Part shown: positions 3,095 through 23,127 of the stretch, piece by piece
Layout of the letters: each line of letters opens with the position of its first letter
How positions within the stretch are numbered: the stretch's first letter is position 1
NCBI GenBank assembly: GCA_000381625.1
Contig: KB906767.1
Location: 1,962,629 to 2,026,628 of the forward strand
Direction: 5' to 3'
Origin: Bryobacterales bacterium KBS 96
GTDB lineage: Bacteria > Acidobacteriota > Terriglobia > Bryobacterales > Bryobacteraceae
DNA: 64,000 nt
Position numbers and translations under genes: made by a program
The notes under the pieces: model-generated
The model's input: the letters and a program-made list of their open reading frames with translations, nothing else
The model's database searches: none
Told to the model about the DNA's origin: nothing

Positions 3095-4240
3095 CTAGAT
3101 GTCGAAATTACGATGGGTGACAGTATACTGTTCCAATTTCTTTTCATCAACGCGGTATCCGACGCCAGGACCAGCGGGAAGGTGAATGGAACTATTTGAA
3201 AGTTGAATGGCAGGCGTGACCACATCGTCCAAGTACCAGCGACTGCTCGGTTCGACATCTGTTGGAAACGAGAAGAGGGGATGAGCGGCCAGCATCAAGG
3301 CTTGCGCGCTGCCAATGCCCAGTTCCGGCATTGTGCCCATCCAAACAGGGACATTGTGCTCAGAACACACCTGAATAATACGAAGCGCCTCCAGATACCC
3401 TCCAACGCGCTGCAACTTAATATTTACGACGCGGCAGGCTTCCATCTCGATCGCTCGCCGCGCATCCTCCGCGGTCTCGATGCTCTCGTCTAAACAAACC
3501 GGCGTGCGCACTTGCCGTTGAAGCTCTGTTGAGCCGTCGAAATTGTCTTTCCCAAACGGCTGCTCAAACATCATCAACGATTCATTGTCCAACGCAACAA
3601 ACGTGGAGAGGTCTGAAAGCGAGTAGTCGGCGTTCGCATCGACGAACAGCGGAAAGTTTCCAACCAAACTTCTAGCGGCTTTCACAACCTCGATATCGTG
3701 GGTCCGCTTTATCTTCAGTTTCAGTCGGCCATATTGGTAAGGATCGTAACGGCGTATCGCATCCTGTAACTCCGCAACATCGGGATAGAGTCCGATGGCA
3801 AGGCCGGAGGCTATCGGTCTGTCCGGAATCCCGAATAGCTGCCGCAAACTGAGATGACGGCGTTGCGCCACAAACTCCCATGCTGCGGTTTCCACAGCGC
3901 CGCGAACAAATCGGTTGCCGGTGAGCCGTACGAGGTCTTCTTCCAGCGCCAGCATGGACGGAAATTCACGATTCAGCACGGCAGGGAGCACGCTATTTAC
4001 CAATTCAGATTCGCAGCCTTCCGGAGTTTCGGATGAATAGAAATCGCCGCCCATTGCCGAAGATTCTCCCCAGCCGTGATACGCGCCATCTCCCAGCCGG
4101 AGAAGGATCGCCTCTTTGCGGATGACCTCGCCCGAGCTAATCCGAAACGGTTCACGCATCGGAATGCAAACGCGGAATAGATCGGCTTTTGTTAGGACAA
4201 TGGGGCCGGAATTGGCCGCCAAAGTGAAAGGATTGAGCAT
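3095..4240 (-). CDS. Enolase-superfamily enzyme, MLE/OSBS/NAAAR subgroup
   Basis: TIM-barrel enzyme that abstracts an alpha proton from a carboxylate substrate. Catalytic residues are visible: a K-x-K pair on the second strand (K174, K176 in RLKLKIKRT), metal ligands D201 (VDAN), E226 (FEQP) and D251 (CLDES), and a sixth-strand lysine K275 (NIKLQRVGG). Two lysines on opposite faces mark the muconate-lactonizing subgroup (o-succinylbenzoate synthase, N-acylamino-acid racemase, dipeptide epimerase) rather than the dehydratases of the mandelate-racemase subgroup. No other menaquinone gene lies near, so MenC is unlikely; racemization or cycloisomerization within the local catabolic run is more plausible. 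An operator-like site (4262-4276) lies just upstream of the ATG, which has no obvious Shine-Dalgarno. Confidence 0.85.
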   Translation of the reverse strand: MLNPFTLAANSGPIVLTKADLFRVCIPMREPFRISSGEVIRKEAILLRLGDGAYHGWGESSAMGGDFYSSETPEGCESELVNSVLPAVLNREFPSMLALEEDLVRLTGNRFVRGAVETAAWEFVAQRRHLSLRQLFGIPDRPIASGLAIGLYPDVAELQDAIRRYDPYQYGRLKLKIKRTHDIEVVKAARSLVGNFPLFVDANADYSLSDLSTFVALDNESLMMFEQPFGKDNFDGSTELQRQVRTPVCLDESIETAEDARRAIEMEACRVVNIKLQRVGGYLEALRIIQVCSEHNVPVWMGTMPELGIGSAQALMLAAHPLFSFPTDVEPSSRWYLDDVVTPAIQLSNSSIHLPAGPGVGYRVDEKKLEQYTVTHRNFDI

Positions 4241-4261
4241 GAGATCAAACAGGCGCGTCCA

Positions 4262-4276
4262 TTATGGATTGTATAA
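4262..4276. promoter_or_regulatory. Predicted IclR operator, site 1
   Basis: TTATGGATTGTATAA matches the near-palindrome TTATRCANTGYATAA at 14 of 15 positions. It sits 21 bp upstream of the enolase-superfamily ATG in the 64-bp gap between that gene and the upstream IclR gene. The same motif recurs at 5084-5098 and, degenerate, at 9951-9965. Assignment to the local IclR protein is inferred from location. Confidence 0.55.
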
Positions 4277-4304
4277 CGCCTTTTGATTCACAAGGAGCGA
4301 ATCG

Positions 4305-5096
4305 CTAGTGGCCAAGCTTCTCCTGGATCGCCGCGGCCGCCGCCAGTAGGGCCCGGCTGGCGGCCGGGAGTTTGGTTTCGTTAAACCGCGTAGCCGGACC
4401 AGAGATGCTGAGAGCAGCCACCGGGGTCTGATTGGCATCGAGAACCGGCGCAGCAACACAAAACGCTCCGAGCATGCTTTCTTCGCGATCCAGAGCATAA
4501 CCGGCCGACCGGATTTTCTGAAGGTCGGCTTTAAGGGCGCTGATCGTTGTTAGCGTATGGTCGGTTTGCTTCGGCATTCCGCATTCCTTCAGCAGGCTGC
4601 GAACCTCGTCGGGAGGCAAAAAGGCGAGATGCGCCTTACCAAGCGCGGTGGAATGCAAACGGTCGCTACCCCCGACTCGCTCGGCAAGCCGAAAGCGCTC
4701 CCTGCTTTCGCGCACATCGACATATCGGATGCTTCCGCCGTCCAGAACGCCCAGGTTTACGGTCTCTCCGAATTGATCGCGTAAAGCATCGAGATACGGG
4801 CTGGCGACAGAAACCAGATCTTTCCGGCGCAGCTTCACATTTCCCAGATCGACGAGTTTCGCGCCAAGTTGATACGTTTGATGTTCTTTGCTGATGTATC
4901 CGTGTTCGGCGAGCGTGTAGAGAATGCGGAACACCGTATTTTTGTTCAGCCGTGTCTCCACCGAAATCTGATGAAGCGAAAGGTGCTGCTGTTCGGATCT
5001 CCCAAAGACATCGAGAATGTCGAGGGTTTTTCCCAAGACTTCAATGTAATAAATATCAGACTTTCGGGTGTTCACGACTCGCATTATACAATGCAT
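4305..5096 (-). CDS. IclR-family transcriptional regulator
   Basis: Cytosolic ligand-responsive regulator. Residues ~15-75 form the winged helix (LSLHQISVETRLNKNTVFRIL, then HGYISK); the remainder is the IclR effector domain (GSIRYVDVRESRERFRLAERVG; HSTALGKAHLAFL; GYALDREESMLGAFCVAAPV; ALSISGPATRF). It lies in a co-directional run between a DegT aminotransferase and the enolase-superfamily gene and probably controls both. Neither the ATG at 5096 nor the ATG at 5084 has a Shine-Dalgarno, and both lie within a motif that also contains a perfect TATAAT; a leaderless transcript starting near the GTG at 5075 is possible. Confidence 0.93.
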   Translation of the reverse strand: MHCIMRVVNTRKSDIYYIEVLGKTLDILDVFGRSEQQHLSLHQISVETRLNKNTVFRILYTLAEHGYISKEHQTYQLGAKLVDLGNVKLRRKDLVSVASPYLDALRDQFGETVNLGVLDGGSIRYVDVRESRERFRLAERVGGSDRLHSTALGKAHLAFLPPDEVRSLLKECGMPKQTDHTLTTISALKADLQKIRSAGYALDREESMLGAFCVAAPVLDANQTPVAALSISGPATRFNETKLPAASRALLAAAAAIQEKLGH

Positions 5097-5098
5097 AA
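5084..5098. promoter_or_regulatory. Predicted IclR operator, site 2 (autoregulatory)
   Basis: TTATACAATGCATAA is the best of the three sites (near-palindrome TTATRCANTGYATAA). On the minus strand it overlaps a TATAAT hexamer (complement of 5083-5088), which would place transcription start near 5075, next to a GTG codon of iclR. Binding here would block RNA polymerase, as expected for negative autoregulation. Confidence 0.55.
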
Positions 5099-5147
5099 CG
5101 GCACTTTTGTCCGTTCGCAGCGACTCGGTAGCGCCGCACGGCGGCGA

Positions 5148-6407
5148 TCAGATTGAATTTGCCGCTGGTGAGTAGCGCGATGCAACTGCCGAAATAGCGG
5201 CCGCAATCTGATGCACGTGCGAGTCTTTCAGATTTTCGTTCCAGTGAATCGCGATCACTTCATCCAATGCGCGCTCCGCGTTGGGACACAATCCGGGCTC
5301 AAAAATTTGTGTTCCCCATTCGCTAAACGGATAGCCGGAGGTTCCGTAAGTGGCCGGTTTGGTAAACAGGGGGGAGCGATAGAGCGGGTCAACAATATAG
5401 CGTACCCAGGCAGGCACTCCTTCAGCCACCAGCGCCTCGCCAAATTGCTGTGTGAGCGCGGCGCCCCGCGCATCCTTCACTCGCAAGAAATAGAGCCAGT
5501 AGGAATGCTTTGTCTTTGGGGAGACGTAAGGAGGGTTGACCATAGGAACGTCGGCTAACAACCGGTCCAGTAGCTCCGCCGCATGACGCCTGCGTCCAAC
5601 AACGTCTTTCACTTTCCGGATTTGTCCAAGGGCCACCGCCCCCTGCAACTCCGACATTCGATAGTTTTGGGATAGGAACAGAAAACGGGCAGCTCCGAGA
5701 GTATGGATATCGCGCGGCCACGCTTTATCCGAGAACAAAGCGGCGCGCTGAAAAAGGCGCCGATTACGAGTGACGACCAGCCCTCCTTCGCCGCAAGTGA
5801 TGTGCTTACTCTGCTGCAAGCTGAAACAAGAGATGTCGCCAATAGTACCGGCCAGTCTGCCATTGTGCTCCGCCCAATAGGCTTGTGAACAATCTTCTAT
5901 CAGCGTCAGGCCGCGCGCGTCGGCTAAACTGCGCAACGAATCCATATCGCACATCTGGCCGGCGAGATGGACGGCGATGATGGCGCGGGTTCTTTTTGTA
6001 AGCCTTCGCTCTACATCCACCGGATCGAGCGTCATTGTCCGCGGTTCGACATCACTGAAAACCGGTATTGCGTTTTGCCATAGAACAGGCAAAATACTTC
6101 CAATATCGGTGATGGGCGGAACAATCACCTCATCCCCTGGTTCGAGGTCCAATGCGGCCACACAGAGATGCACGGCAGCCGTTCCGCTCGAGCAGGCGAT
6201 CGCGAACGGCAGCTCCACCATCGCCGCGAACTCCCGCTCCAGGCGCTTTACCATCGACCCGCCGTTCTTGCTTAAACACCCGGAACGCAGGGCCTCCAAC
6301 ACCAAACCCTCTTCCGTTTCGTCGAATGTACGTCCGGCGGCATTTTGAAAGTGAGGCAACGCCTCGCGTACCGTTTTGAGTCCGCCTTCAATAGCAAGAG
6401 TATTCAT
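5148..6407 (-). CDS. DegT/DnrJ/EryC1/StrS-family aminotransferase
   Basis: PLP-dependent aminotransferase (fold type I) that transfers an amino group to a keto-sugar or keto-cyclitol. The PLP lysine is K201 in CFSLQQSKHITCGEGG; ACSSGTAA (~71-78) binds the phosphate and EDCSQA (~171) carries the PLP-pyridine Asp. At 419 residues it is somewhat longer than sugar aminotransferases. There is no signal peptide, so it is cytosolic. Its ATG overlaps the stop of the Gfo/Idh gene by 4 nt; in antibiotic and aminocyclitol pathways such a pair makes or breaks amino-sugars (oxidation to a ketone, then transamination). Two more DegT genes lie at 29080 and 33084. Substrate unknown. Confidence 0.92.
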   Translation of the reverse strand: MNTLAIEGGLKTVREALPHFQNAAGRTFDETEEGLVLEALRSGCLSKNGGSMVKRLEREFAAMVELPFAIACSSGTAAVHLCVAALDLEPGDEVIVPPITDIGSILPVLWQNAIPVFSDVEPRTMTLDPVDVERRLTKRTRAIIAVHLAGQMCDMDSLRSLADARGLTLIEDCSQAYWAEHNGRLAGTIGDISCFSLQQSKHITCGEGGLVVTRNRRLFQRAALFSDKAWPRDIHTLGAARFLFLSQNYRMSELQGAVALGQIRKVKDVVGRRRHAAELLDRLLADVPMVNPPYVSPKTKHSYWLYFLRVKDARGAALTQQFGEALVAEGVPAWVRYIVDPLYRSPLFTKPATYGTSGYPFSEWGTQIFEPGLCPNAERALDEVIAIHWNENLKDSHVHQIAAAISAVASRYSPAANSI

Positions 6408-7453
6408 GAGACCAATGACGCCCGGTGTTTCACCTGAACGGTTCGGCCTTCCCGCGCGGATTCATAAGCGGCCTCAGCAACAGCGACCGCGGCGCGACCA
6501 TCTTGCCCGGTCACGGATGGAGATCTGCTTTCTAAGATGCTGTTCACAAATTCCTGGTGCTGGGCCTGATAGGATTTCATACGGACGTTCGCGAGCATGC
6601 CTTCTCCCGCCCAGTCAATGGGCGCCTGCTCCGCGATGACAGTCCAGTTTCCTTCCCGGCCAAGCCGTAGTTGTCCGTAGGCGTCAAGCTCTAAAATTCC
6701 CGTTTCACCAACGATGCGCGCGCCGGAGGCCGTATGCGGAAATCCAGGAGACGGAATGTCCCAGGATTCCCAAACTGTAGCCATGCATCCGGAGGTCAGG
6801 GAAAGAAGCGCCATCGTTGACGCTTCGTTCCCGCTCTTGCGATCGCGTTGAACGTGCGCGGCAACGGAAGTGACTTCCGCACCGGTAAACCATCGAATCC
6901 GATCGATGTTATGGACAGCATGACCAATGAATGTTCCGACGTTTTCCGGCCGGCTCTGCCAGGGCGGCAGCGACGCTAAGCCGCCGGACGCGAGAATCAA
7001 CTCTTCGATCATACGGACCTGCCCAATTGCACCTTCACGTAACAAGCGGTGCGCCTCGATGTTGCACACGCGGAAGCGCTGGCCGTACATGATCATTAAA
7101 TTGACATGCGCATTCTCGACGGCGTCCAGAATGCGGTCACATTCTTCGACCGATGTGGCCATTGGCTTATCGAGCAGTACGTGTTTGCCATGCGATACAG
7201 CAAGTAGCGCCTGTGCGCAGTGTTCGCTGTGCGGCGTACTGATCAGCACTGCGTCGATATCCGGTGCGGTCGCCAGCGCCTCAACGGACGCTTCGCAGCG
7301 CACGTTGTACTCGGCCGCTAGCGCCGGAGCCCTTGAGCCTCCGGCAATCGCAATCAGCTCCGCATTATTCAAGTAGCGGCACACGGTCTCCGCGTTAGTA
7401 CGCCCCATGAAGCCGGCGCCGACAATCCCAATATTGACCTTCTTCATATTCAA
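6404..7453 (-). CDS. Gfo/Idh/MocA-family oxidoreductase
   Basis: NAD(P)-dependent sugar or cyclitol dehydrogenase, cytosolic. The Rossmann motif is GIVGAGFMG (~9-17). The family EKP motif appears as DKP with the catalytic lysine at K96 (LLDKPMA), and HAVHNIDRI supplies H181 and D184. Length (349) is normal. Translationally coupled on both sides by 4-nt overlaps (FAH-family gene upstream, DegT gene downstream). Oxidation of a hydroxyl to a ketone that the DegT enzyme then aminates, or the reverse in catabolism, is the natural inference. Confidence 0.92.
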   Translation of the reverse strand: MNMKKVNIGIVGAGFMGRTNAETVCRYLNNAELIAIAGGSRAPALAAEYNVRCEASVEALATAPDIDAVLISTPHSEHCAQALLAVSHGKHVLLDKPMATSVEECDRILDAVENAHVNLMIMYGQRFRVCNIEAHRLLREGAIGQVRMIEELILASGGLASLPPWQSRPENVGTFIGHAVHNIDRIRWFTGAEVTSVAAHVQRDRKSGNEASTMALLSLTSGCMATVWESWDIPSPGFPHTASGARIVGETGILELDAYGQLRLGREGNWTVIAEQAPIDWAGEGMLANVRMKSYQAQHQEFVNSILESRSPSVTGQDGRAAVAVAEAAYESAREGRTVQVKHRASLVS

Positions 7454-8379
7454 CTGCGATACTCACCGGCAATTCGGTTTTCAAGCACCCCAATTCCTTC
7501 TATCTCGGCACGCATCCGGTCACCCGGTTTCAGCCGGATGCCGCGTGCTTTCCCCACGCCGTCGGGAGTGCCCATCGCAATCACATCGCCGGGTTCCAAT
7601 GTCAGCACTGAAGAGATGTAAGCGATGGTTTGCGGAATATCAAAAATCATCTGAGATGTATTGGAAGACTGCATCACGTCCCCATTTAGGGAGAGCTGCA
7701 AGTTGAGCTGATGCGGGTTGGTAAGTTCATCCGCGGTGACGATTTCGGGACCGAGCGGCGCGCTGCCATCAAACCATTTACCAAGCAGCCAATCGAAAAA
7801 CGGATCGAACTCACGGACGTTACGTCCTTCCATGCCTGCATTGAATTTGCGTTCACTGATATCGTTAATGACGCTATACCCGAACACGTACGATAGAGCG
7901 TTCGCATCGCCTATATCGCGGCCGCGCTTGCCGATGACGACCGCAAGCTCCACTTCCCAGTCGAGAAACACATTGTTCTTGCCTAAATGAATCAAACCGC
8001 CTGGCCCGTTCAGAGTTGTGGACGGCGGCTTGCAAAATACCTGCGGGGTGATCCGCTCTTCCCCATTGACAGCGCGGAAGCCACTCTCGACAATGTGCTT
8101 CCGAAAATTACCAGCGAGGGCGAGCAATTTCGGAACATCCCGGATGGGAGCATCCAAACGTAAATCCCGATATTGAAAAACAAGGTTCGAATCCGACGCC
8201 GCGGAATCTGCCAGCACTCGCACGGAATCCAATGAACCTTCCTCCAGAAGGCCGGTAATGCTGAACAATCCACGGCCGTTCAAGCGCTCCGCAGCCGCAG
8301 TCAGGTCGATGACTTCATCACCGTGTCGCAAACCCAGATGGACTTCATTCGAAGGATGGAAAAATCGTAAAAATCGCAT
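7450..8379 (-). CDS. Fumarylacetoacetate hydrolase (FAH)-family protein
   Basis: Metal-dependent hydrolase or decarboxylase acting on 2,4-diketo or 2-keto-acids. Metal ligands are E142 and E144 (LDWEVELAVVIG) and D173 (INDISER); QVFCKPPSTTLNGPGG and the C-terminal GDVIAMGTPDGVGKA are the usual family blocks. Length (309) is typical of bacterial members such as 2,4-diketo-3-deoxy-L-fuconate hydrolase, but also of acylpyruvases and ureidoglycolate-lyase-like enzymes, so specificity cannot be read from sequence. Overlaps the Gfo/Idh gene by 4 nt and follows the amidohydrolases by 9 bp. A lactonase-like amidohydrolase plus an FAH hydrolase suggests non-phosphorylating sugar-acid catabolism. Confidence 0.92.
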   Translation of the reverse strand: MRFLRFFHPSNEVHLGLRHGDEVIDLTAAAERLNGRGLFSITGLLEEGSLDSVRVLADSAASDSNLVFQYRDLRLDAPIRDVPKLLALAGNFRKHIVESGFRAVNGEERITPQVFCKPPSTTLNGPGGLIHLGKNNVFLDWEVELAVVIGKRGRDIGDANALSYVFGYSVINDISERKFNAGMEGRNVREFDPFFDWLLGKWFDGSAPLGPEIVTADELTNPHQLNLQLSLNGDVMQSSNTSQMIFDIPQTIAYISSVLTLEPGDVIAMGTPDGVGKARGIRLKPGDRMRAEIEGIGVLENRIAGEYRS

Positions 8380-8388
8380 GTTTGGTTG

Positions 8389-9156
8389 CTAAAGCTGAAG
8401 CAGACGACGGGCGTTACTGCAACAAATCGATTCCCGCGCTATGTCCGAAATGCGTGCGTGCAAAATCTTTTCGAGGTTGGCCCGCCCGTGCTGGATAGGA
8501 GCGGCGCTCCCAAATAGAATTTGTTCGTGTCCGCATTCCTCTACCAGCTTGCGGATAGCTTCGTATCCCATCACGCAGGACGTTTCCAGGTGGACCGTTT
8601 CGTACTTCTTCAAATACGCCACGGACGCCCGAATCTCGTGAAGGTAGTTCACGCCGGAGAGTATCCAGGGGACACGAGGATGGCGCTCAATCAGGCCAAA
8701 CATCGAAGACAGATCCAAACTCGGCACGCCCCAATTCATGATGGCGCGCATCGATAGGAGCACTGGAAATCGCAAGGCAGCCGCCTGCTCGCAGATGACA
8801 TCGACAAAGGATTCGAACAGTGGATGAAAGCTGTGATGCTGCGGATAGAGCCTGATCCCACGAAATCCTTGAGCCCGGCACAAGGCTAAGTCGTGAATGT
8901 GGCTTCCGATGCGGTGCGATAACTCGAAAGTCCCCAGACAGGCAAAGGGAATAAAACATTCCGGATATTCGCGAGCGGCACGTCCGACTTCGATGTTGCC
9001 GTCGTCCCAGTTCACGAACAGGCTCCGTGTTGAGCAGATACATGCCCGCTCAATACCCCATTCAGGGAGCTTCTGCGCGACATCACCGGGACTGGATATG
9101 GAAACGGGCCAATAGGGCCACTTGCCGATGAAGGCGTTTACGTCCAGCACCATCAC
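8389..9156 (-). CDS. Amidohydrolase_2-fold protein lacking metal ligands
   Basis: TIM-barrel protein of the amidohydrolase-2 group (ACMSD/lactonase-like) that seems to have lost its metal site. The N-terminal HxH is replaced (VLDVNAFIG), the mid-barrel His positions are gone (PVLLSMRA; PWILSGVNY), and the terminal FG[ST]D is FGSAAP. The upstream neighbour, of the same length and fold, keeps all of them. The two overlap by 4 nt. I read it as a non-catalytic partner, or an enzyme with changed chemistry, rather than a hydrolase; the frame is intact and the C-terminal block (RESICCSNARRLLQL) is conserved, so it is not decayed. Confidence 0.85.
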   Translation of the reverse strand: MMVLDVNAFIGKWPYWPVSISSPGDVAQKLPEWGIERACICSTRSLFVNWDDGNIEVGRAAREYPECFIPFACLGTFELSHRIGSHIHDLALCRAQGFRGIRLYPQHHSFHPLFESFVDVICEQAAALRFPVLLSMRAIMNWGVPSLDLSSMFGLIERHPRVPWILSGVNYLHEIRASVAYLKKYETVHLETSCVMGYEAIRKLVEECGHEQILFGSAAPIQHGRANLEKILHARISDIARESICCSNARRLLQL

Positions 9157-9890
9157 GCGAGTCCCATCAAGCGGAGGATATTGCCTCCGAGGATCTTCTT
9201 GAGCCCGTCCGCGGCTACATTCGTATCACTTACTTTCGAGAGTTGAAAATAGGGATCTAGTAGCGGAATATCGGTGCCGAAAATAATTTTCTCCGGACCC
9301 AACTCCCGGACACAAGTCTCCAGGAATCCTGTATCGATTGTCGAGCTTGCCGTCTCGAGATAAAGGTTCGGGTAGCGCTTGGCCGCCATAATGGCCCGAT
9401 TCCAGTCTCCATGGGCATAAGGCTGGGCTGCGGCGTGCGCCATCATAAGCCGGCATTCGGGAACGGCCGCCATCAAATATTCGCATTCGAGAGGAGTGGC
9501 ATGCGCCAGAATCGGAAATCCAAGATCCACAGTCTTCTCAAGAATTGGAATGGTTGCAGGTTCGGCGATTGTCATTTGAGGCGTGGAGTAGATCTTCAAA
9601 CCACGCATCCCGTAGTCGTTTGCACAGCGCTCCAGTTCCTGCAACGCTTCCTCGCCAAAGCGCGTGGAGTGCAGACTGGCGTAGCCGATAATGCGATCGG
9701 GGAATTTTCTCATTTCTTCGTAAAGAAGACGATTCCCTTCATGCATGTCGTAGAACAGCGCAGTCAAATCGGTGCAGCAGATTTTCTCGAAGCCTATTTC
9801 GTCGGCGACCCGGACCAGATGCTCGCCGTCGACGTCGATCTGGAGACGCGTTGACTTGCCAATGTGCACGTGTGCATCAATCATCATCAC
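9153..9890 (-). CDS. Amidohydrolase_2-family metal-dependent hydrolase
   Basis: TIM-barrel hydrolase, probably a lactonase or decarboxylase of the amidohydrolase-2 group. Metal ligands are present: HxH in MIDAHVHIG (H7, H9), His in FPILAHATPLE and in MMAHAAAQ, and the terminal Asp in IIFGTDIPLL. Length 245. The frame opens with GTG-ATG-ATG; one of the two ATGs (9887 or 9884) is the likely start, and the Shine-Dalgarno is weak. It heads the minus-strand run of five genes with 4-9 nt junctions. An operator-like site lies ~60 bp upstream. It probably opens a lactone or a similar intermediate that the FAH and Gfo/Idh enzymes handle; substrate not determinable. Confidence 0.9.
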   Translation of the reverse strand: MMMIDAHVHIGKSTRLQIDVDGEHLVRVADEIGFEKICCTDLTALFYDMHEGNRLLYEEMRKFPDRIIGYASLHSTRFGEEALQELERCANDYGMRGLKIYSTPQMTIAEPATIPILEKTVDLGFPILAHATPLECEYLMAAVPECRLMMAHAAAQPYAHGDWNRAIMAAKRYPNLYLETASSTIDTGFLETCVRELGPEKIIFGTDIPLLDPYFQLSKVSDTNVAADGLKKILGGNILRLMGLA

Positions 9891-10175: not shown

Positions 10176-10280
10176 GTTGATTGACTGTATTTGACTACAT
10201 GGGATAAGGTCAAATGTTATCGAAGTGATGGGAAGCACTGGAGTGCTCCAATTTGTGGCCATACATCCGGATTGCTACCT

Positions 10281-12017
10281 GTGACAGAACTTCGCCTCAC
10301 CCTTCCCGACTACATCGTCATCATCGGCTACTTCCTCGTCGTGCTTTGTGTTGGCTTGTATTTCAACAAACGCCAGGCAGCTTCGCGGGATTACTTTGCG
10401 GGAGGGCACCAGGTGCCCTGGTGGCTCGCGGGCATTTCGCATTACATGTCCAGTTTCAGCGCTTTTACATTCATTGCCTATTCGCAAATAGCGTATACGG
10501 ATGGATGGGTGGCGATTACTCTATTCTGGGTGACTACACCCGCATGCATCATCGGCGGACTGGTTTTCGCCCGGCGCTGGCGTCGCGCACGGGTTATTAC
10601 GCCGGTCGAGTTTCTTGAAAAGCGTTTCAACGCCCCCATGCGGCAACTGTTCGCGTGGGCTGGCATTCCGGTAAAAATCTTCGACGATGCCTTGAAGATC
10701 TTTGCGACGGCGCTGATACTCTCGGCAAGCGTAGGCATCGAGATTAAAACTGCGATTGTAGCCTGCGGGGCAGTGACCGTCACCTATACGCTCTTGGGTG
10801 GTTTGTGGGCCTTGGTCGTAACGGATTACGTCCAATTCCTGATGAAGATCGCGGCCATGCTGCTGCTGCTTCCGCTGGCCGTGTGGCGCGCGGGAGGCCC
10901 GACGCACGCACTGCGAGGTCTACCTCCGGGCTTCCTACATCCGACCGGGGGACCCTACGGGTGGACATACATTCTCAGCTTCACACTGCTCGTGATCATC
11001 AGCTACAACGCAACGTGGGCGCTGGCGCAGAAATACTATTCCGTTCCGGACGAGCGCTCGGCAAGCAAAGCTGCCTATTTTTCCGCGGCGCTCAATTTTG
11101 TAGGAACACCTCTCATGTTGTTGCCGGCAATCATCGGCCGCAAGCTGTTGCCCGACCTGATCGCGCAGCATCGAACGGCGGACACCTACGTATTGCTGGT
11201 TCTTGAGCTTCTTCCAGTGGGGATGGTGGGGATCATCGTCGCCGCGATGTTTTCGGCAACAATGGCGGCAATCAGCGCCGATCTAAACGCGATTGCAAGC
11301 GTACTAACTCGCGATTTCTACCTTCGCATACTAAGGCCGAAAGCGAGCGAAACAACGCTGGTCCGCACTGGCAGGCTCTTCACGCTTGCGCTAGGGACAG
11401 TTGTTGTCGGCCTGAGTCTCTGGGTTGCGCTGAGCCATCAGGAATCTCTGTTTCACGTCATGGTGACGGCCTTCGGGTTGCTGCTCGCCCCCACGATGCT
11501 GCCGGTTCTAGCGGGGTTGACGGTGCGCTGGCTGACATGGAGAGGCGCCCTGTCTGGGTTCCTTGTTGGCCTCGCGACCGGAATGGGAACTCTTGCGACA
11601 AAGACGTGGTACCTGCCAACGCTGCATAACTTTTCGCCGGAATGGGCCAACTACACCTTTGAAGGAATATCGATTTTCGTCAATATCGGCGCCACCTGCC
11701 TGGGATTGTGGCTTGGCAGCACGCTTCCAGCGCGGGACGCGAAAGAACAGGCACGGATTGCGCTATTTTTTCGCGATCTCGATACTCCCATCGCGCCTGG
11801 AGAAGTTCATAAGGACCAAGACGACTCTGCCCGCCCCGCACTGGGAGCTGGAACGATGGTGGTGGGTCTGCTGCTTGTTCTCGCCGGGTTGTTCGCTCGC
11901 TCGGCGGAGGCTCGCTCAATCGATCTAACGCTTGGGCTGGCATTGATGGGACTTGGCGTCAAGTTCCTTACTGCCGCGCGGCAATCGAAAAAGAAAGACT
12001 TTCAAATACCCGTATGA
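10281..12017 (+). CDS. Sodium:solute symporter family (SSS) transporter
   Basis: Inner-membrane Na+-coupled transporter with ~14 hydrophobic helices. It opens with LPDYIVIIGYFLVVLCVGLYF and SRDYFAGGHQVPWWLAGISHYMSSFSAFTF, the SSS signature in which the first broken helix and the Na+ site lie. The frame is open from 10191, but that extension (CYRSDGKHWSAPICGH) is unlike the family, so I chose the GTG at 10281 (MTELRLTLPDY); its Shine-Dalgarno is weak. The stop overlaps the ATG of the DUF4861-like gene by 4 nt. Divergent to the catabolic run; probably imports its substrate (a sugar, sugar acid or related compound; inferred). Confidence 0.92.
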   Translation: MTELRLTLPDYIVIIGYFLVVLCVGLYFNKRQAASRDYFAGGHQVPWWLAGISHYMSSFSAFTFIAYSQIAYTDGWVAITLFWVTTPACIIGGLVFARRWRRARVITPVEFLEKRFNAPMRQLFAWAGIPVKIFDDALKIFATALILSASVGIEIKTAIVACGAVTVTYTLLGGLWALVVTDYVQFLMKIAAMLLLLPLAVWRAGGPTHALRGLPPGFLHPTGGPYGWTYILSFTLLVIISYNATWALAQKYYSVPDERSASKAAYFSAALNFVGTPLMLLPAIIGRKLLPDLIAQHRTADTYVLLVLELLPVGMVGIIVAAMFSATMAAISADLNAIASVLTRDFYLRILRPKASETTLVRTGRLFTLALGTVVVGLSLWVALSHQESLFHVMVTAFGLLLAPTMLPVLAGLTVRWLTWRGALSGFLVGLATGMGTLATKTWYLPTLHNFSPEWANYTFEGISIFVNIGATCLGLWLGSTLPARDAKEQARIALFFRDLDTPIAPGEVHKDQDDSARPALGAGTMVVGLLLVLAGLFARSAEARSIDLTLGLALMGLGVKFLTAARQSKKKDFQIPV

Positions 12018-13294
12018 CTATAAGCCGAATTGCATGGTTGTTCCTGATGGGCGCGTCCGCCCTTGCGGCTGAGACAACCGCTACGGGCAACGAATGGCTG
12101 CTGCCCAATTTCGCCTATCGATTGAGCGTGGAAGTTTCGAACTCAGGACGCATGCCGGTGCAGGCGCTCGCGACGGTGCCGGTAGCCAAAGCACGGGCTG
12201 TTGCGCCGGATTTTCCGGGCCGGATTGCCTTCGCCGTGGTCCTCAACGGGGCTGGTTCAGCACAGCCGGTAACAATCGTCGCCTCACAGGCGGACGACCT
12301 TGACGGAGACGGCATTCCCGATCAATTTGAATTTCCGGTCAGCCTTGCCGCCGGCGAGCGTCGCCGGGTCGATATCTATTATTCAACGACGCTCGACGAC
12401 TCAATCTCATGGCCGAAACAGGTACAGGCGAAGCACAGCTATGGCTACAACCGGCAGGTTGCCGCGATCGAGTCTGAACTGATTGGCTATCGCACATATG
12501 GCGGCTTTTTCCTGGACGTGCAGGCGCGAGAGGCGGGAAGCCGTGGTCTCTATAATGACTTTGCCGCGTACGTCCCGCCAAGGTTAAATTTCCAAAAAGG
12601 GCGCGATGTTCTCCACATTGGCGACACCCTTGGGCTAGGCGGAATTTTCCTGCGGCGCGAAAACAGGCTCTACCAGCCGCCGATGAATGTCCCCGACTAC
12701 GCGCACAAACCTTCGCCCGAAATGGTTCCCCACTACCGCGTGATCGCACAAGGGCCGTTGCGCGCCATTATAGAAACGACCTTGGAACCATGGACGATCG
12801 ATGGGGATATCGTCAATCTAAAGGCGCAATATTCCATCGATGCCGCCAAAACATTTGTGCGCTGCCGGTTTGAAGCGATCCCCATTCGCGTGCAACCATC
12901 GCACGAATACGAAGTGGGAATCGGCATCCGCGATCTGCCCAACGAATCGCTGCTACCGGCGCCAGGTCGATTGATTGTTACCGGACAGCAAAATCAACGC
13001 GACGGCAAGATAGGGCTGGCGCTCTATTTTGACGAGAAACAATTCTGGTCGAGTGCCCCCGTACGGACTTCGGAATCGAGCAATCAGGCCGTTGTCAGCA
13101 AAACGCAGCTTAAGCCGGGACAGGCCGTCAGCGGCGAATATACGGCGACCGCAGCGTGGACCGGCAGTGGAATCAAAGATCCCGGAACGGCCCTGGCGGC
13201 GCTTACCACGGCCGCAGCGCAACATATCGATGTCGGCGACTTCGTATTTGCCAGGAACCCACACCCCGAGAACATCGACGCAGAATCGCACTGA
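12014..13294 (+). CDS. Secreted DUF4861-like protein
   Basis: Exported protein (signal peptide MTISRIAWLFLMGASALAA) resembling DUF4861, a family often found beside pectin- or glycan-degrading enzymes and of uncertain activity. Markers are ASQADDLDGDGIPDQFEFPVSL (~95-115, a calcium-type DxDGDG loop), IYYSTTLDD, and the GDTLGLGGIFL and MVPHYRVIAQGPLRAIIETT blocks. The same module forms the C-terminal half of the protein at 15209. Coupled to the symporter by a 4-nt overlap, which ties it to processing of the transported substrate. At 426 residues it holds the module alone. Confidence 0.75.
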   Translation: MTISRIAWLFLMGASALAAETTATGNEWLLPNFAYRLSVEVSNSGRMPVQALATVPVAKARAVAPDFPGRIAFAVVLNGAGSAQPVTIVASQADDLDGDGIPDQFEFPVSLAAGERRRVDIYYSTTLDDSISWPKQVQAKHSYGYNRQVAAIESELIGYRTYGGFFLDVQAREAGSRGLYNDFAAYVPPRLNFQKGRDVLHIGDTLGLGGIFLRRENRLYQPPMNVPDYAHKPSPEMVPHYRVIAQGPLRAIIETTLEPWTIDGDIVNLKAQYSIDAAKTFVRCRFEAIPIRVQPSHEYEVGIGIRDLPNESLLPAPGRLIVTGQQNQRDGKIGLALYFDEKQFWSSAPVRTSESSNQAVVSKTQLKPGQAVSGEYTATAAWTGSGIKDPGTALAALTTAAAQHIDVGDFVFARNPHPENIDAESH

Positions 13295-13307
13295 TATGGA
13301 TTTGACG

Positions 13308-13336
13308 TTGACAATATGTTTTTGACATAGCCAAAT
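13308..13336. promoter_or_regulatory. Conserved 29-bp element, copy B
   Basis: A 29-bp stretch (TTGACAATATG, two bases, then TTTGACATAGCCAAAT) matching 23 of 29 positions at 23232-23260. It lies ~70 bp upstream of the GTG at 13408. The second TTGACA could also serve as a -35 box with TAATCG 18 bp downstream. Confidence 0.5.
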
Positions 13337-13407
13337 AGCACGAGCTAATCGTAGCTTGGCATAGAACGAAGGCTACCGCAGTATTTCCGGAATAATGGAG
13401 AACCAAT

Positions 13408-15198
13408 GTGACCTATCGACTCCTGTTCATCACGTTGTTTTCTGTGGCAATTGCTTCGGCAACACCTGAAAAGGGAGCAAAGCTTCCTTGGTATATGCAG
13501 GAGACGGCAATGTCGCCCAACGGGCGACTGACGTTTCTCGACAAACCCTGGTGGCCCCGCGCTAAAGCACTGGCCGACGGACAGAGTTTCTCGCTCGATT
13601 TGAATCACGATGGCCGTCCCGACACACTGATCGAACGTAAAGACGGCAATATCGTCGAGATCATCGATGACAGCGGTCGCTCGTCCGATATCGCGACCAA
13701 TAAGGCCGATGTCGCTTATGTCGTCAGCTCTAAGGGCAGCGGTCTGGTCGATCGCATGATCGTCTACATCGACAACGATGGAGATGACAAGGCTGACGAA
13801 ATGGAAATTCGCCATTATCGCGACGGCTATCTTCGTTACGCCTGGTTCGGCGAAAATTACGACCGGGACGGCCAGCAAATCTTCGCCCTGAAGGATTGGA
13901 GTTATGCCGGAGGGAGCGATTTCGACAGCAAGTTCCGGGGCAATGTTGATTTCTACCTGAATAAATACGATCCGGAGACCCGAACCTGGGTACCCCTTTC
14001 GGAGTGTCCGTTTATTTTCTGGGACCGCGACCATGACGGGCGCGGCGATATTGTATTACGCGTTTCAGCCGCGCCTCTTTCGAGCAATACGGGCAAGGAC
14101 ACCGATTACGCAAACAACTACAACTACATGTGGGCGGAGAAGGCGACGCCGCTCCGCGAAATCGGAAACATGAATGTGCGGTTCAGTTACAACCTAGATC
14201 CGAGTCCGCGCCTGGAACCGGAAAAGAAGCCACACTACACTTTCGGATTCAACATGGTGGGAGCTCAACCCTATTCATATCCTGGCATGAGATATACCAA
14301 TCTCCGGCGAAGACCGCCACAAACAGTGGTGCGTGTTCCCGAAAACCAGGGCATCAACATCGCTTTGCATTATCCGGCACAACGAACGGGTTTCACTTGG
14401 GACGAGGCTCGGACCGTCTTCCGATGGGAAGGCCAATTCTGGATCTATGAACGGGAATATATGCCGAATACCGGCGGCCCGGTGATGCGGTGGAACATGC
14501 GGCGCGAGTATTCGCCTAATCCCTCCAGCGAGCATAAACTCTACTACTCCGACGTCGACAAGCGATACCATCTCTACGGCGCACGCGAGGGATGGATGGA
14601 AGTGGGCCACCTGGTGAACAAAGAAAAAGACCTGGAGTTTCGATATTTTGATACAAACGGAGACGGCTATCTCGACACAACACAGGTCTTTGAAGGCGCG
14701 AACCCCGTTCCGGTGCGGGTCAGCCACGTCACGGATGTTCGGACACAAGCCGTTACGCTGACGCGCGATTGGCTTCAGGCCGATTACAACAATAGAGTGC
14801 TGCCAGGGGCAATTCGCGAAGACGAACGACTGATTGCCGTGTTGAAACCAGTTGCTCCAATCCCACTGGCTGCCGCCTACGAAGAGGCAGCGGCAAAGTC
14901 TGAAACAGCCGAGCGACGACGCTACTGCCTGGATATTGCGCGGGAATTGTATTTTCTAAAAGCGCGAGATATCTTCTACACCCAAACTGCCGCTGGTCCT
15001 TATCCCCAAATGAATCCGGCTCCGAAGAGCATGAGAATTATAACTGCCGGGCCGGTGGACGGCGGATTCACGCTAGGCGACTCGCTCGTCTATTGGCAAC
15101 GATCGAAACAGATCGAGCAGTTTGTACAGAGCTACGGCGCGGGAAAAATTGACGATGCGGTGAGCGCCGCGGAAGAACTTAGGAAATCGCTTCCATAG
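13408..15198 (+). CDS. Secreted Asp-rich calcium-loop protein
   Basis: Exported protein of unknown function with signal peptide (MTYRLLFITLFSVAIASA). The GTG start at 13408 is preceded by GGAG. It holds at least four DxNxDGxxD-type loops (D64-D72, D122-D130, D206-D214, D415-D423), a pattern of EF-hand/dockerin/thrombospondin-3-like calcium sites. The N-terminal ~450 residues resemble the N-terminal half of the next protein (LVDRMIVYIDNDGDDKADEMEI against AVVEYRDTDHDNGLDEMAI; KLYYSDVDKRYHLYGAREGWMEV against KIYYSPIDRRFHLLGADAAWLKV). The C-terminus is helical. It starts a two-gene unit, 10 bp ahead of 15209. No catalytic motif recognised. Confidence 0.75.
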   Translation: MTYRLLFITLFSVAIASATPEKGAKLPWYMQETAMSPNGRLTFLDKPWWPRAKALADGQSFSLDLNHDGRPDTLIERKDGNIVEIIDDSGRSSDIATNKADVAYVVSSKGSGLVDRMIVYIDNDGDDKADEMEIRHYRDGYLRYAWFGENYDRDGQQIFALKDWSYAGGSDFDSKFRGNVDFYLNKYDPETRTWVPLSECPFIFWDRDHDGRGDIVLRVSAAPLSSNTGKDTDYANNYNYMWAEKATPLREIGNMNVRFSYNLDPSPRLEPEKKPHYTFGFNMVGAQPYSYPGMRYTNLRRRPPQTVVRVPENQGINIALHYPAQRTGFTWDEARTVFRWEGQFWIYEREYMPNTGGPVMRWNMRREYSPNPSSEHKLYYSDVDKRYHLYGAREGWMEVGHLVNKEKDLEFRYFDTNGDGYLDTTQVFEGANPVPVRVSHVTDVRTQAVTLTRDWLQADYNNRVLPGAIREDERLIAVLKPVAPIPLAAAYEEAAAKSETAERRRYCLDIARELYFLKARDIFYTQTAAGPYPQMNPAPKSMRIITAGPVDGGFTLGDSLVYWQRSKQIEQFVQSYGAGKIDDAVSAAEELRKSLP

Positions 15199-15208
15199 AC
15201 CGGTTGCA

Positions 15209-18157
15209 ATGACTATGAGAGTTCCTCTGGTCGTGTTGCCGCTCGCCGCGGCTTCCCTGCTCTGCTTGTCTCCACGCCACAAGGCGACGCCGGCGCAAGA
15301 ACAAGGTCACAAGCAGGAATTGTTCAAGCGCATATTCGGTGAAAAGATCGTGTCGTTCGATCCCGCCGCGGTTGCGAAGGTCAAGACGATGAGACCGGGA
15401 GAGCGTCTGAAACTCGATACTGACGGAGATGGAAAAATCGATACCGTCTATTTCATCGACGACGATCCGAAGAACCAAGCTGAGTTTCGGCCTATTGTCG
15501 TGAAAGCCATCGATCAGGACGGGGATATGGCTCACGACGGCGATGCGGACCTAGACAGTGACTTATATGTAGCGGGTTGGCATGGCGACGGAACCGTCGA
15601 CGCCGTGGTGGAGTATCGCGATACCGATCACGACAATGGCCTGGATGAAATGGCCATTTACACCTATTCCGCGCGGAATTCCAAGCTGGGCACAGATGCC
15701 ATTCAGGTCTGGTGGTCGCGTGATACCGGGCATACCCATCAACTGTGGAATACGATCAACTATCGCTATCAGCAACCTGAATGCCAGTTCCGGACGGCTT
15801 TCGGTGGCGACGAGGTGTTCTCGAGCTATATCTTCGATAGCGTCCATGGAATCTGGATTCCTAGCTGGGAGAATCCGTTCGCGTTTCACGACGAGGATGG
15901 AGACAATCTGGCCGAGGTAGCGATTCGATTTTCAGGCTCCGAAAACCGAATGGAGAGCATGCGGTACAGCTTCGATGCCGACAACGATACGGCCGGCGAC
16001 AATCCGCATGATTACGACTTTTCCTTTTCATGCCTGTCCTCGCGTGACGCAAAGGGCGAAGCTACAATTCCCGTCCCGCCCGCCCTGATGGAACGTATTG
16101 AGTTGCGTGGAGCACCGGTGGAGCCACTGCTCGCATGGCAAAACGCGCGGGAATTCGGCGAGAACGCGCCGTGGAAAAAGGTGATGTTCACCTGGGTAGA
16201 GAACGACAACAATATCGACTCGCGACCGAACGGGGACCCGCACGAAAGATGGGAAGGCGTCATAACCCCAGGCGCCGAACAGTTTCCGCAAGTGGGCGGT
16301 CCCGCAGTAAGCCCCTTCAACAGCCGTTACGAACTGGATCTCGATAACAGCGGGAAGATGAAAATCTACTACTCGCCGATCGACAGGCGCTTCCATCTTC
16401 TCGGCGCCGACGCAGCTTGGTTAAAGGTAGATTACAACTACGACGGCAAAGTAGACATGGAATTCCGCTACATAGACGCCGACCATGACGGTGTCATCGA
16501 TACGTGGGAAGTTGATATCGATGGCGATGGCAAATCCGATCGATCTTTCCACGTCGAACATTCGCCATGGCAAATCGTTCCACTTACGTACAAGTCCATG
16601 ACGAGTCGCTACAACTCGGCGCTCGACGACGCTCTCGCCCAGAATCAAGCGCTCATTGATGCAATGAAAGGAGTGTTGGCGTCAGCCGAGAGCGGTTTCC
16701 GGCAAGACGAGGTGGAATCGTACTTTACTAATGATCTTTTGAACTACCGCAAGGACGATGGAGTGGGGGAAAAAATCCGCAATAGCCGCGAAGGCACACG
16801 ATACTACCAGGATTTGATTCGCGAGCGTTATTTTTTCCGTTTGAGCAAATTGCTCGCACCGCAACCGGACTTCCTACGCCGCGTGAAGGCGCTGTACAAT
16901 GCGGGCGATTTTTCCGGCGCCGCAAGACTGCTGCAAAAGCATTTCCCTGCCTCCGTTCAGGATCGTGCCGGCTGGTACGGCGATTTCAGAAGCCGCTTCG
17001 CTGTCGACGTGGCGAATCCCGATTCGACGTGGAGACTGAACGAGCCGATTGTTTTGGATATCGCGGCAATTCGAAAGGCTCTACCAGATTTCAACTCTCG
17101 TAATTTTGTGTTGACAGAGTATCCGCGCCGGATTTGCAATCGAGAAATCGCCAGCCAGGCTGACGACCTGGACGGCGACGGTAAAGCCGATCAGATTGTA
17201 TTTCTGGCGAATTTGCGGCCCCACGAAACGGCGCACTACTGGATCTACTACTCGCCCGCTGGCGAACGGAACAACAATTATGCCCCGAACACCGCAGCGA
17301 CGGAGCAGTGGCCGGGAACCACGGATGGCCTTGGGTGGGAGTCAAATCGAGTTGCCTACGTGTTCAACGGAGGTCGAATGGAGTTCCTGGGAAAGAAGGA
17401 GCGTGCTCTCGTGCTGAAGTCTTTGACTCCTTCACAGAACTATGATTCGGAACACGACTGGGGAATGAATGTTCTGAGTTCCGGCGAGACGGCCGGAATA
17501 GGCGGCCTCACTATCTGGGACGGTGACAAAGCGCTTCCGGCCTTTAACGGCGCAGGAGGAAAGGTAGTGAGCATTAAGCGCCGCATTGTCGCGAGCGGGC
17601 CCGTGCGGACCACGGTAGCAGCGATATTGACTGGCATCGGCGCCGGGCAGAATCGATACAACGTCGAGGAGCAATTCTCGATTTACGCGAATGGCCGCTA
17701 TTCCGAGAATCATGTCCGCATCGTGTCAACAAAAGGATCACGAGCGATACGGCTCGGTCCCAGTTTCATAAGAATGCCGAACGATCGCTCGTTCTTCAAT
17801 GCGGCCAAAGGCTATTTCGGTTCCTGGGGCAGGCAAAACAATATCGTTCAGGAGGTCGGACTAGGAGCTATCTTCCCTATCGGTATCGCCTCGTTGCGTG
17901 ATGGGGAGAATGAACGGCACATCGTGTTGCAGACGACGCCCGGTAACGAACTGACGTACTACACGATAGGCGACTGGCGGCGCGGCCGTACGTTTCCGGT
18001 CGCGCCAATTGTCACAAACTGGGAAAAGGAAGTGAAAGCTCTGGCGGCAAGAATTCACGACCCCGTTCGCGTGGCAATCGGCAGCCGCGAGAAATCCGTG
18101 GCGTCGTCCTCAATCCCCGAGCAGCCAACACCGAACCCGCGCGCAAGGCCCAACTAA
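15209..18157 (+). CDS. Secreted calcium-loop/DUF4861-like fusion protein
   Basis: Exported 982-residue protein (signal peptide MTMRVPLVVLPLAAASLLCL) that joins the two architectures upstream: residues ~40-480 are an Asp-loop region like 13408-15198 (DTDGDGKID, DQDGD, DTDHDNGLDE, DYNYDGKVD, DADHDGVID, DIDGDGKSD), then a helical linker, and from ~585 a DUF4861-like module (ASQADDLDGDGKADQIVFLANL, IYYSPAGERNNNYAPNT, SSGETAGIGGLTIWDG) like 12014-13294. Six or more calcium-type loops suggest an extracellular, calcium-stabilised fold. Carbohydrate processing is inferred from neighbours only. It ends 4 nt into the convergent GAF gene. Confidence 0.75.
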   Translation: MTMRVPLVVLPLAAASLLCLSPRHKATPAQEQGHKQELFKRIFGEKIVSFDPAAVAKVKTMRPGERLKLDTDGDGKIDTVYFIDDDPKNQAEFRPIVVKAIDQDGDMAHDGDADLDSDLYVAGWHGDGTVDAVVEYRDTDHDNGLDEMAIYTYSARNSKLGTDAIQVWWSRDTGHTHQLWNTINYRYQQPECQFRTAFGGDEVFSSYIFDSVHGIWIPSWENPFAFHDEDGDNLAEVAIRFSGSENRMESMRYSFDADNDTAGDNPHDYDFSFSCLSSRDAKGEATIPVPPALMERIELRGAPVEPLLAWQNAREFGENAPWKKVMFTWVENDNNIDSRPNGDPHERWEGVITPGAEQFPQVGGPAVSPFNSRYELDLDNSGKMKIYYSPIDRRFHLLGADAAWLKVDYNYDGKVDMEFRYIDADHDGVIDTWEVDIDGDGKSDRSFHVEHSPWQIVPLTYKSMTSRYNSALDDALAQNQALIDAMKGVLASAESGFRQDEVESYFTNDLLNYRKDDGVGEKIRNSREGTRYYQDLIRERYFFRLSKLLAPQPDFLRRVKALYNAGDFSGAARLLQKHFPASVQDRAGWYGDFRSRFAVDVANPDSTWRLNEPIVLDIAAIRKALPDFNSRNFVLTEYPRRICNREIASQADDLDGDGKADQIVFLANLRPHETAHYWIYYSPAGERNNNYAPNTAATEQWPGTTDGLGWESNRVAYVFNGGRMEFLGKKERALVLKSLTPSQNYDSEHDWGMNVLSSGETAGIGGLTIWDGDKALPAFNGAGGKVVSIKRRIVASGPVRTTVAAILTGIGAGQNRYNVEEQFSIYANGRYSENHVRIVSTKGSRAIRLGPSFIRMPNDRSFFNAAKGYFGSWGRQNNIVQEVGLGAIFPIGIASLRDGENERHIVLQTTPGNELTYYTIGDWRRGRTFPVAPIVTNWEKEVKALAARIHDPVRVAIGSREKSVASSSIPEQPTPNPRARPN

Positions 18158-22174: not shown

Positions 22175-22199
22175 AGGCGGGTTTTGAATCAACCCGCCT
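22175..22199. terminator. Hairpin between convergent genes
   Basis: Perfect 9-bp stem (AGGCGGGTT / AACCCGCCT) with a 7-base loop, between the stop codons of the cytochrome gene (+) and the amidohydrolase gene (-). It includes the last codons of the latter. No U-tract follows on either strand, so it would be a weak or Rho-assisted bidirectional terminator. Confidence 0.4.
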
Positions 22200-23127
22200 G
22201 ATTCGCAGTAATCTTCAGCAATCGCGAGGCATTGCCGTAGAGCATCTTCCGCACGGCGGCATGATCTGGAGCCAGTCTCCGTACTGTCGCAATCTGTTGG
22301 GCTCCAACACACTTGTTCCCGGCCCCCACCACATCCTCGCAATCGCTTCCGAACAAAAGCTTGTCCTGGTGGCGCTTCAGAAAATCCCGAGCGTTGTCTT
22401 CATCTCGCAGAAAAGCATTCAATCCCGATCCGGCTGAAAGGTCACCGTAGCTATTGGGGTAATCGGAAAGGAGGCGGTCAGTAATGCCGCCCGGAGTTAC
22501 GCGGCCCTTTGGATACAGAACCGGCTGCTGACAATTTTTGTCGATATTTGCCCACCAAGTCTGCGCATGTCCGATGAAATTCACCGTGGGATATTTTTCG
22601 AGCAATTTGTGGAACCGTTCAAACCGCAGGTTGTAAGTTTCGTATTGAAAATGCATCAGCACGGGCACCCGATAGTCTTTGGCAATATCCGCGATCAGCT
22701 GCATATATTTCGAATCGCAATCGACGTGAAATTTCTGCTCGCCGATCCCGATGGCGCCCGCCTTCAGATATTTCTCGATCACCGGTTTTGTCGCCGGGAT
22801 ATCGGGCAGTTCGTTGGCAAAGAAGGCGAACCGTTCGGGATGCGCCTTCGCAAGCGCGATCACCGTATCGTTGCCGCCGCAATTTGCGGCGAGCCCATAC
22901 TTCGATCCGGCCGGGAGCAGGATGGTCTTGCCGATGCCCATCGTGTGCTGGTGCGCTATCAGCTGCTCATTGTTCCGGCCGTGATAATTCGTGTGCTGGT
23001 GAATGTCAATAATTGGTTCTGTCGATGCTTGAGCCAGCGCTGCACATACCACTCCCAAAAAGGTTCGCCGTGAATATGCCTTTAGCCGATCAGGTCTTTC
23101 TACTCTATTGATTTTAATTCGCATCAC
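22189..23127 (-). CDS. Tat-exported amidohydrolase_2-family protein
   Basis: TIM-barrel hydrolase exported folded through the Tat pathway (YSRRTFLGVVCAALAQA, with the twin Arg about 20 residues in). Metal ligands are intact: HxH in IIDIHQHTNYHG, His in VPVLMHFQYET and in VNFIGHAQTWW, and Asp in LLFGSDCEDVV. Periplasmic location, where a metal enzyme of this fold would need prior cytosolic loading, explains the Tat signal. The frame opens with GTG (23127) then ATG (23124); no clear Shine-Dalgarno. Upstream lie a conserved 29-bp element and a long-range inverted repeat. Substrate unknown; possibly a lactone made by the neighbouring propeller dehydrogenase (inference). Confidence 0.88.
   Translation of the reverse strand: MMRIKINRVERPDRLKAYSRRTFLGVVCAALAQASTEPIIDIHQHTNYHGRNNEQLIAHQHTMGIGKTILLPAGSKYGLAANCGGNDTVIALAKAHPERFAFFANELPDIPATKPVIEKYLKAGAIGIGEQKFHVDCDSKYMQLIADIAKDYRVPVLMHFQYETYNLRFERFHKLLEKYPTVNFIGHAQTWWANIDKNCQQPVLYPKGRVTPGGITDRLLSDYPNSYGDLSAGSGLNAFLRDEDNARDFLKRHQDKLLFGSDCEDVVGAGNKCVGAQQIATVRRLAPDHAAVRKMLYGNASRLLKITANQAG

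Follow-up and report, generated by a model that had tools for sequence, protein, structure and literature searches.

Heteromers built from an enzyme and a catalytically dead relative are known, mostly as isolated cases. In trypanosomatids the AdoMetDC prozyme, an inactive paralogue, activates the enzyme; an active and a dead paralogue cooperate there, as is proposed for the products of the two amidohydrolase genes described here, which we call A and B. The prozyme is unlike this pair in having another fold, in being eukaryotic and of narrow range, and in showing no export pattern. Within the amidohydrolase superfamily, a dead chain serves as a structural partner in the inactive dihydroorotase of some (Pseudomonas) aspartate transcarbamoylases and likewise in the pseudo-dihydroorotase of fungal CAD-like proteins (PMC4581275). 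The inactive dihydroorotase is the nearest known case that we found, although its partner is a transcarbamoylase of a different fold, whereas the presumed partner of B is its own active paralogue. We considered and rejected the possibility that B is itself the pseudo-dihydroorotase of an aspartate transcarbamoylase, since no transcarbamoylase was present among the 28 proteins scanned against Pfam in the window (the whole stretch of 64,000 nucleotides that was analysed).

In fold, A and B resemble the Amidohydro_2 decarboxylases ACMSD and gamma-resorcylate decarboxylase, and the A profile matches 3s4t with an E value of 6.4e-18; the likeness to an ACMSD-type decarboxylase is one of fold and profile. 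Those decarboxylases are homodimers of active chains, whereas in the A/B pair one half is dead. We found no description of a tandem active/inactive amidohydrolase pair in the literature searched, whose coverage took in a minority of the subscription journals. Pseudoenzyme partners as such were already known; what would be new here is a pseudoenzyme family that is tied to its active paralogue and is unusually old and wide.

The junction between the two genes in the window reads ...GCGTGATGGTG..., with a 4-nt overlap (GTGA) if B starts at GTG, or alternatively a 1-nt overlap (TGATG) if it starts at the ATG of the next codon (Table 1). Both proteins match the Pfam profile PF04909 (Amidohydro_2; 92.6 bits for A and 52.9 bits for B, against a gathering score of 26.4), and they align with each other end to end (23% identity, E 1e-14). 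Predicted from its own alignment, A forms a confident barrel (pLDDT 93.8), and B, likewise predicted from its own alignment, has an intact fold (pLDDT 94.3, pTM 0.93). The top Foldseek matches include gamma-resorcylate decarboxylase, the uncharacterised amidohydrolase 3cjp, LigJ, LigY and ACMSD. These profile matches, the end-to-end alignment and the predicted barrels bear out the initial annotation, which had described two overlapping genes of common fold, the downstream one with an intact frame: B is open throughout and its fold is predicted to be complete. As judged from the residues at the aligned positions, the ligand set of a metal-dependent amidohydrolase (HxH, His, His, Asp) is present in A and absent from B. 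The loss of every metal ligand from the downstream gene, also noted at the outset, was thus confirmed residue by residue, with Asn7, Phe9, Arg102, Ser135, Gly168 and Ala218 standing in their places.

Table 1. Features of the A–B locus, numbered from the first letter of the window.
Feature	Position	Strand	Description
A	9153-9890	-	245 aa, Amidohydro_2, full ligand set (expected catalytic subunit)
B	8389-9156	-	255 aa, Amidohydro_2 paralogue, all ligands lost (putative pseudoenzyme subunit)
A stop / B GTG start overlap	9153-9156	-	GTGA
A His7-x-His9	9864-9872	-	HxH, beta-1
A Lys99	9594-9596	-	beta-4
A His130	9501-9503	-	beta-5
A His152	9435-9437	-	beta-6
A Asp207	9270-9272	-	beta-8
B Asn7-x-Phe9	9130-9138	-	replaces HxH
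B Arg102	8851-8853	-	replaces Lys
B Ser135	8752-8754	-	replaces beta-5 His
B Gly168	8653-8655	-	replaces beta-6 His
B Ala218	8503-8505	-	replaces beta-8 Asp
FAA hydrolase, GFO/IDH/MocA, DegT, IclR and MR_MLE genes	3095-8379	-	context, after B on the same strand
Symporter (SSF) and DUF4861 genes	10191-13294	+	context, divergent

Close relatives of the window's B (above 250 bits) were present in five other genomes among the 237 of the window's family, one of them as a contig-end fragment, and one further close relative, L136, came from a phylum-wide sample. All the full-length ones (L002, L021, L022, L023 and L136) lie directly downstream of an A gene. Aligned as five rows, the full-length B genes of this subfamily keep at most one ligand each: the first His of HxH is kept in L002 and L023, and the other ligands are kept in none of the five. 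A sixth gene, L136 (DxN and FGSG), was compared at its first and last motifs. Because these close relatives retain so little of the site, the ligand loss in the window's B is not a matter of chance, and the conservation check suggested in the initial annotation yielded no ligand-retaining orthologue in the same context among the relatives examined.

What was first seen as a local oddity is real in the window, but it belongs to a wider protein family that is old and widespread. In the 237 genomes we found 76 B places, distributed over 43 genomes (E 1e-30), and an A gene (threshold at least 152 bits) lies within 300 nt at 69 of them. The order is A followed by B in 59 of these close pairs and the reverse in eight, with two pairs on opposite strands; of the seven remaining B places, four abut the end of a contig, and for the other three the genome encodes an A at a different location. 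Overall, A is present (E 1e-30) in 42 of the 43 B-bearing genomes, the exception (G098) being the genome whose B is a contig-end fragment. A scan of named genomes gave 76 loci from about a dozen bacterial groups and from archaea, the record titles naming Acidobacteria, Armatimonadetes, Zipacnadia, WS1, Omnitrophota, Planctomycetes, Verrucomicrobia, Bacteroidetes, Fodinibius, Poribacteria, Chloroflexi, Hydrogenedentota, Bathyarchaeota and Thaumarchaeota. Either A or a degenerate form of it, A', stands beside B in 70 of the 76; among the six loci without an adjoining A, the B gene runs up to the end of a contig in three, and the others are split (L075, L090 and L119), with A or A' elsewhere in the genome. 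In the phylum-wide sample 15 of 396 genomes gave a match at E 1e-20, and the family is therefore widespread but patchy.

Of the 97 distinct A>B pairs examined, 71 have a possible start codon for B inside a 4-nt overlap with the stop of A. No A–B fusion was found among the 34 open frames of at least 400 codons with a match in the fetched loci. Nor did the neighbours (128 of the 161 listed were included in their alignment) reveal a shared neighbourhood pointing to a reaction for the wider family, the commonest Pfam families accounting for 6 of 94 and 7 of 128 neighbours among the matches listed. Three loci from Niabella (L072, L092 and L093) carry two complete A–B pairs in succession, in which each A has its own Tat-type signal and neither B has one.

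The contrast between the two proteins at the metal site extends through the whole family. Counted over 102 distinct rows, the A ligands are kept as His in 96, His in 96, His in 97, His in 101 and Asp in 98, and the beta-4 position holds Lys in 84 and Glu in 11, which we take to be what is expected of the metal-bridging group. Among 101 distinct B rows, covering all subfamilies, the first His of HxH has become Asn in 91, the beta-4 Lys has become Arg in every one and the beta-6 His has become Asn in 83; the beta-8 position is Gly in 46, His in 35 and never Asp. Among the 76 named loci the constancy of Arg102 and His108 owes something to the search itself, since the scan query covered that stretch; the beta-4 Arg is also found in 35 of 35 B rows that were collected independently of that scan, and within the set used for the 89-protein tree it is absent from the B of L156 and L157. 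For all 69 proteins of the B alignment Amidohydro_2 is the sole Pfam match, and NCBIfam gives no match at all (E 0.001); the dead half will therefore probably be annotated with a hydrolase function. The named loci contributed 68 of their 79 B proteins to this alignment, to which the window's B was added, the omissions being L048, L111 and L116 (partial) and eight duplicates of other rows; omitted from the A alignment were the partial L064, the degenerate A' of L107, L115 and L120, and duplicates.

To place the two proteins relative to one another we used a tree of 89 proteins from 46 sources, hand-picked from 166 loci and the window to cover the subfamilies. The 37 B rows fall on one side of a single branch (support 100/99), those of the distant B-first pairs (L010, L128, L133, L134, L135 and L143) included, and the A rows fall on the opposite side, grouped with solitary amidohydrolases. 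The split remains when the ligand-flanking columns are removed, with support of 69/92 and in 67% of 200 bootstrap trees; because support falls in this way, two origins of B are possible, and a single origin is favoured, not proven. From one further tree three partial rows were dropped. Branching in the A half of the tree is largely matched by that in the B half (Mantel distance correlation r 0.92 over 37 pairs, with 0 of 2,000 permutations as high), L157 being placed differently in the two halves. In 17 of 17 close comparisons the dN/dS of B lies between 0.04 and 0.26, and that of A ranges from 0.01 to 0.36; the comparisons share sequences, and since both they and the 97 pairs are related among themselves, the numbers overstate independence. 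By these ratios B is under purifying selection.

Partly degenerate tandem partners were also seen elsewhere in the tree. At L009, L013 and L044 one member of a tandem Amidohydro_2 pair keeps HxH, the beta-6 His and the Asp, has Ile for the beta-4 Lys and Thr for the beta-5 His, and groups with the active side. At L130:630-2280 the second-listed member of a tandem pair has N-H-R-H-H-E at the ligand places; it too groups with the active side, and a B-like partner may have arisen here independently. Tandem partners have therefore degenerated outside the B clade as well.

Export signals were sought with a motif rule rather than a trained predictor (a start codon, a twin-arginine motif and an uncharged hydrophobic stretch), which was satisfied at 34 of 2,263 random points, and they were counted in same-strand A>B pairs scoring at least 190 bits, the distant B>A subfamilies being left aside. 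Among the 97 pairs, a Tat-type signal is found on A only in 43, on B only in eight, on neither in 46 and on both in none. If the signals were independent, the chance of zero double-signal pairs would be 0.007, a figure that makes the case look stronger than it is because the pairs are related. Some pairs are doubly degenerate and have no intact metal site (L107, L115, L120 (= L163), L158, L162, L165 and L166); their A' is derived from A, has Tyr and His in place of HxH, Lys and Asp, and mostly comes after the B gene. By eye, the signal is on B and not on A' in L107, L115, L120, L162 and the split pair L090/L165, and it is on neither partner in the split pairs L075/L147 and L119/L148. The degenerate A' pairs thus seem to follow the one-signal pattern too.

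The Tat pathway exports folded proteins, and complexes carrying one tag are known (PMC4273604, PMC10924467). Because Tat takes folded complexes with one tag, the simplest reading of the sequences is that in the tagged lineages A and B are folded and exported as one unit. They would in this respect be like the Tat hitchhiker complexes such as E. coli PaoABC, which are folded heteromers with the signal on one partner only (PMC4273604); in contrast to PaoABC, the tagged partner differs between lineages, being either A or B, and the window pair has no tag. The one-signal pattern is the strongest indirect clue to a complex, and it comes from relatives of the window pair. Being without an export signal, the window pair itself should be cytoplasmic.

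These computed patterns, that is the ligand loss with the predicted fold retained, the pairing, the co-diversification, the selection and the single signal per pair, lead us to propose, with a probability of about 70%, that A and B form an obligate heteromer in which A is the catalyst and B a pseudoenzyme subunit. In this complex A would hold the sole metal site (HxH, Lys or Glu, His, His, Asp) and perform the chemistry. B would be an old pseudoenzyme with the same barrel, with Asn, Arg and other residues where the metal site used to be, and would most likely pair with A like the halves of the ACMSD homodimer, supporting the shape of A and contributing residues to the pocket in which A binds its substrate. 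The gene overlap would couple the synthesis of the two chains, and in many lineages the folded pair would leave by Tat on the signal of one partner. B has lost the catalytic residues, has kept the fold (as predicted) and remains under selection, as expected of a pseudoenzyme partner, and its recurrence in many bacteria and some archaea suggests a working partner rather than a decayed copy. Weighing against the heteromer are the pairs that are split in the genome, the lack of any fusion among the frames inspected, the untagged state of the window pair and the weaker support for one B clade once the ligand-flanking columns are removed. The heteromeric complex suggested in the initial annotation has accordingly gained in plausibility from the near-obligate pairing, the co-diversification, the purifying selection and the one signal per pair, and physical contact between the chains is the part of it that we still infer.

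The positions conserved in at least 85% of the 69 B rows (window numbering) lie largely around the barrel mouth. They comprise Asn7, Trp13 and Pro14 after beta-1, Asn75, Pro76 and Trp86 after beta-3, Arg102, Pro105, Tyr107, His108 and Tyr110 after beta-4, and Asp140 and Arg142 after beta-5; the window's B deviates from the consensus at 75, 76, 86, 107, 110, 140 and 142. The ACMSD monomer is inactive because its substrate-binding Arg comes from the neighbouring subunit (PMC9021598), and for this reason we regard B as most likely a substitute for one half of such a dimer. More tentatively, and as something possible rather than probable, B may be an ancient lineage that has been paired with its active paralogue through most of its history and that forms a composite site with it. 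In such a site A would give the metal, and residues of B at the ends of beta-1, beta-3, beta-4 and beta-5 would cross the interface to the substrate; an equally good reading is that these conserved residues serve to bind a ligand of B.

If the heteromer is real, this would be an old and widespread family in which the dead half has evolved in step with the living half through several subfamilies, offering many natural replicates of one enzyme/pseudoenzyme arrangement, and assays of the live half by itself might show no activity. If the composite site is also real, many genes labelled 'amidohydrolase' would be half-enzymes, inactive in assays of the single protein.

Other roles for B have to be weighed against the heteromer. 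LigI, a metal-free lactonase of the wider superfamily, is a precedent for B being an independent metal-free enzyme that uses its conserved pocket residues to act on the substrate or product of A, and both the purifying selection on B and its own conserved residues at the pocket mouth would agree with this. We nevertheless consider it unlikely, as it leaves unexplained why the signal is on A or on B but never on both, and the loss of seven consensus positions in the window's B would be odd for a fixed catalytic site. It is also possible to see B, as the initial annotation did in its second suggestion, as a ligand sensor or allosteric subunit that modulates A by binding something resembling the substrate in its dead pocket, since the residues most conserved in B lie for the most part where strands end and in the loops that surround the opening of the pocket; this conservation is equally compatible with an interface, however, and with no regulatory link or ligand seen we judge a sensor to be quite improbable. 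Finally, a decaying duplicate kept by chance is scarcely credible and was rejected, for although its catalytic residues are gone and relaxed selection could explain one genome, the open frames, the invariant residues common across phyla, the low dN/dS in every comparison and the single B clade across bacteria and archaea contradict decay.

For the window's own subfamily, the surrounding genes give some indication of what the putative A–B heteromer may act on. In the four named relatives, whose loci each cover only part of the region, DegT is near the pair in all four, FAA hydrolase, GFO/IDH/MocA, IclR and DUF4861 in three, and MR_MLE and the symporter in two. Two NCBIfam matches were above cut-off, MR_MLE (a menC-type model, 236 against 201) and a general symporter model, and the remaining matches for the operon proteins were below their cut-offs. 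The combination of an oxidoreductase, an enolase-superfamily protein, an FAA hydrolase and a transporter suggests catabolism of a sugar-acid-like compound, for which A/B would perhaps be a lactonase, decarboxylase or hydrolase. There are two DUF4861 proteins in the window (12014-18157), one of which recurs beside the A–B operon in relatives; the literature search gave no paper on this family. Elsewhere in the window, a solitary Amidohydro_2 protein with a full ligand set (22189-23127) lies beside a DUF7133/cytochrome c gene and has a very long tree branch, and the gene at 34292-35476 encodes an IclR-type DNA-binding domain and a periplasmic-binding-protein-like sugar domain in one protein, an unusual combination.
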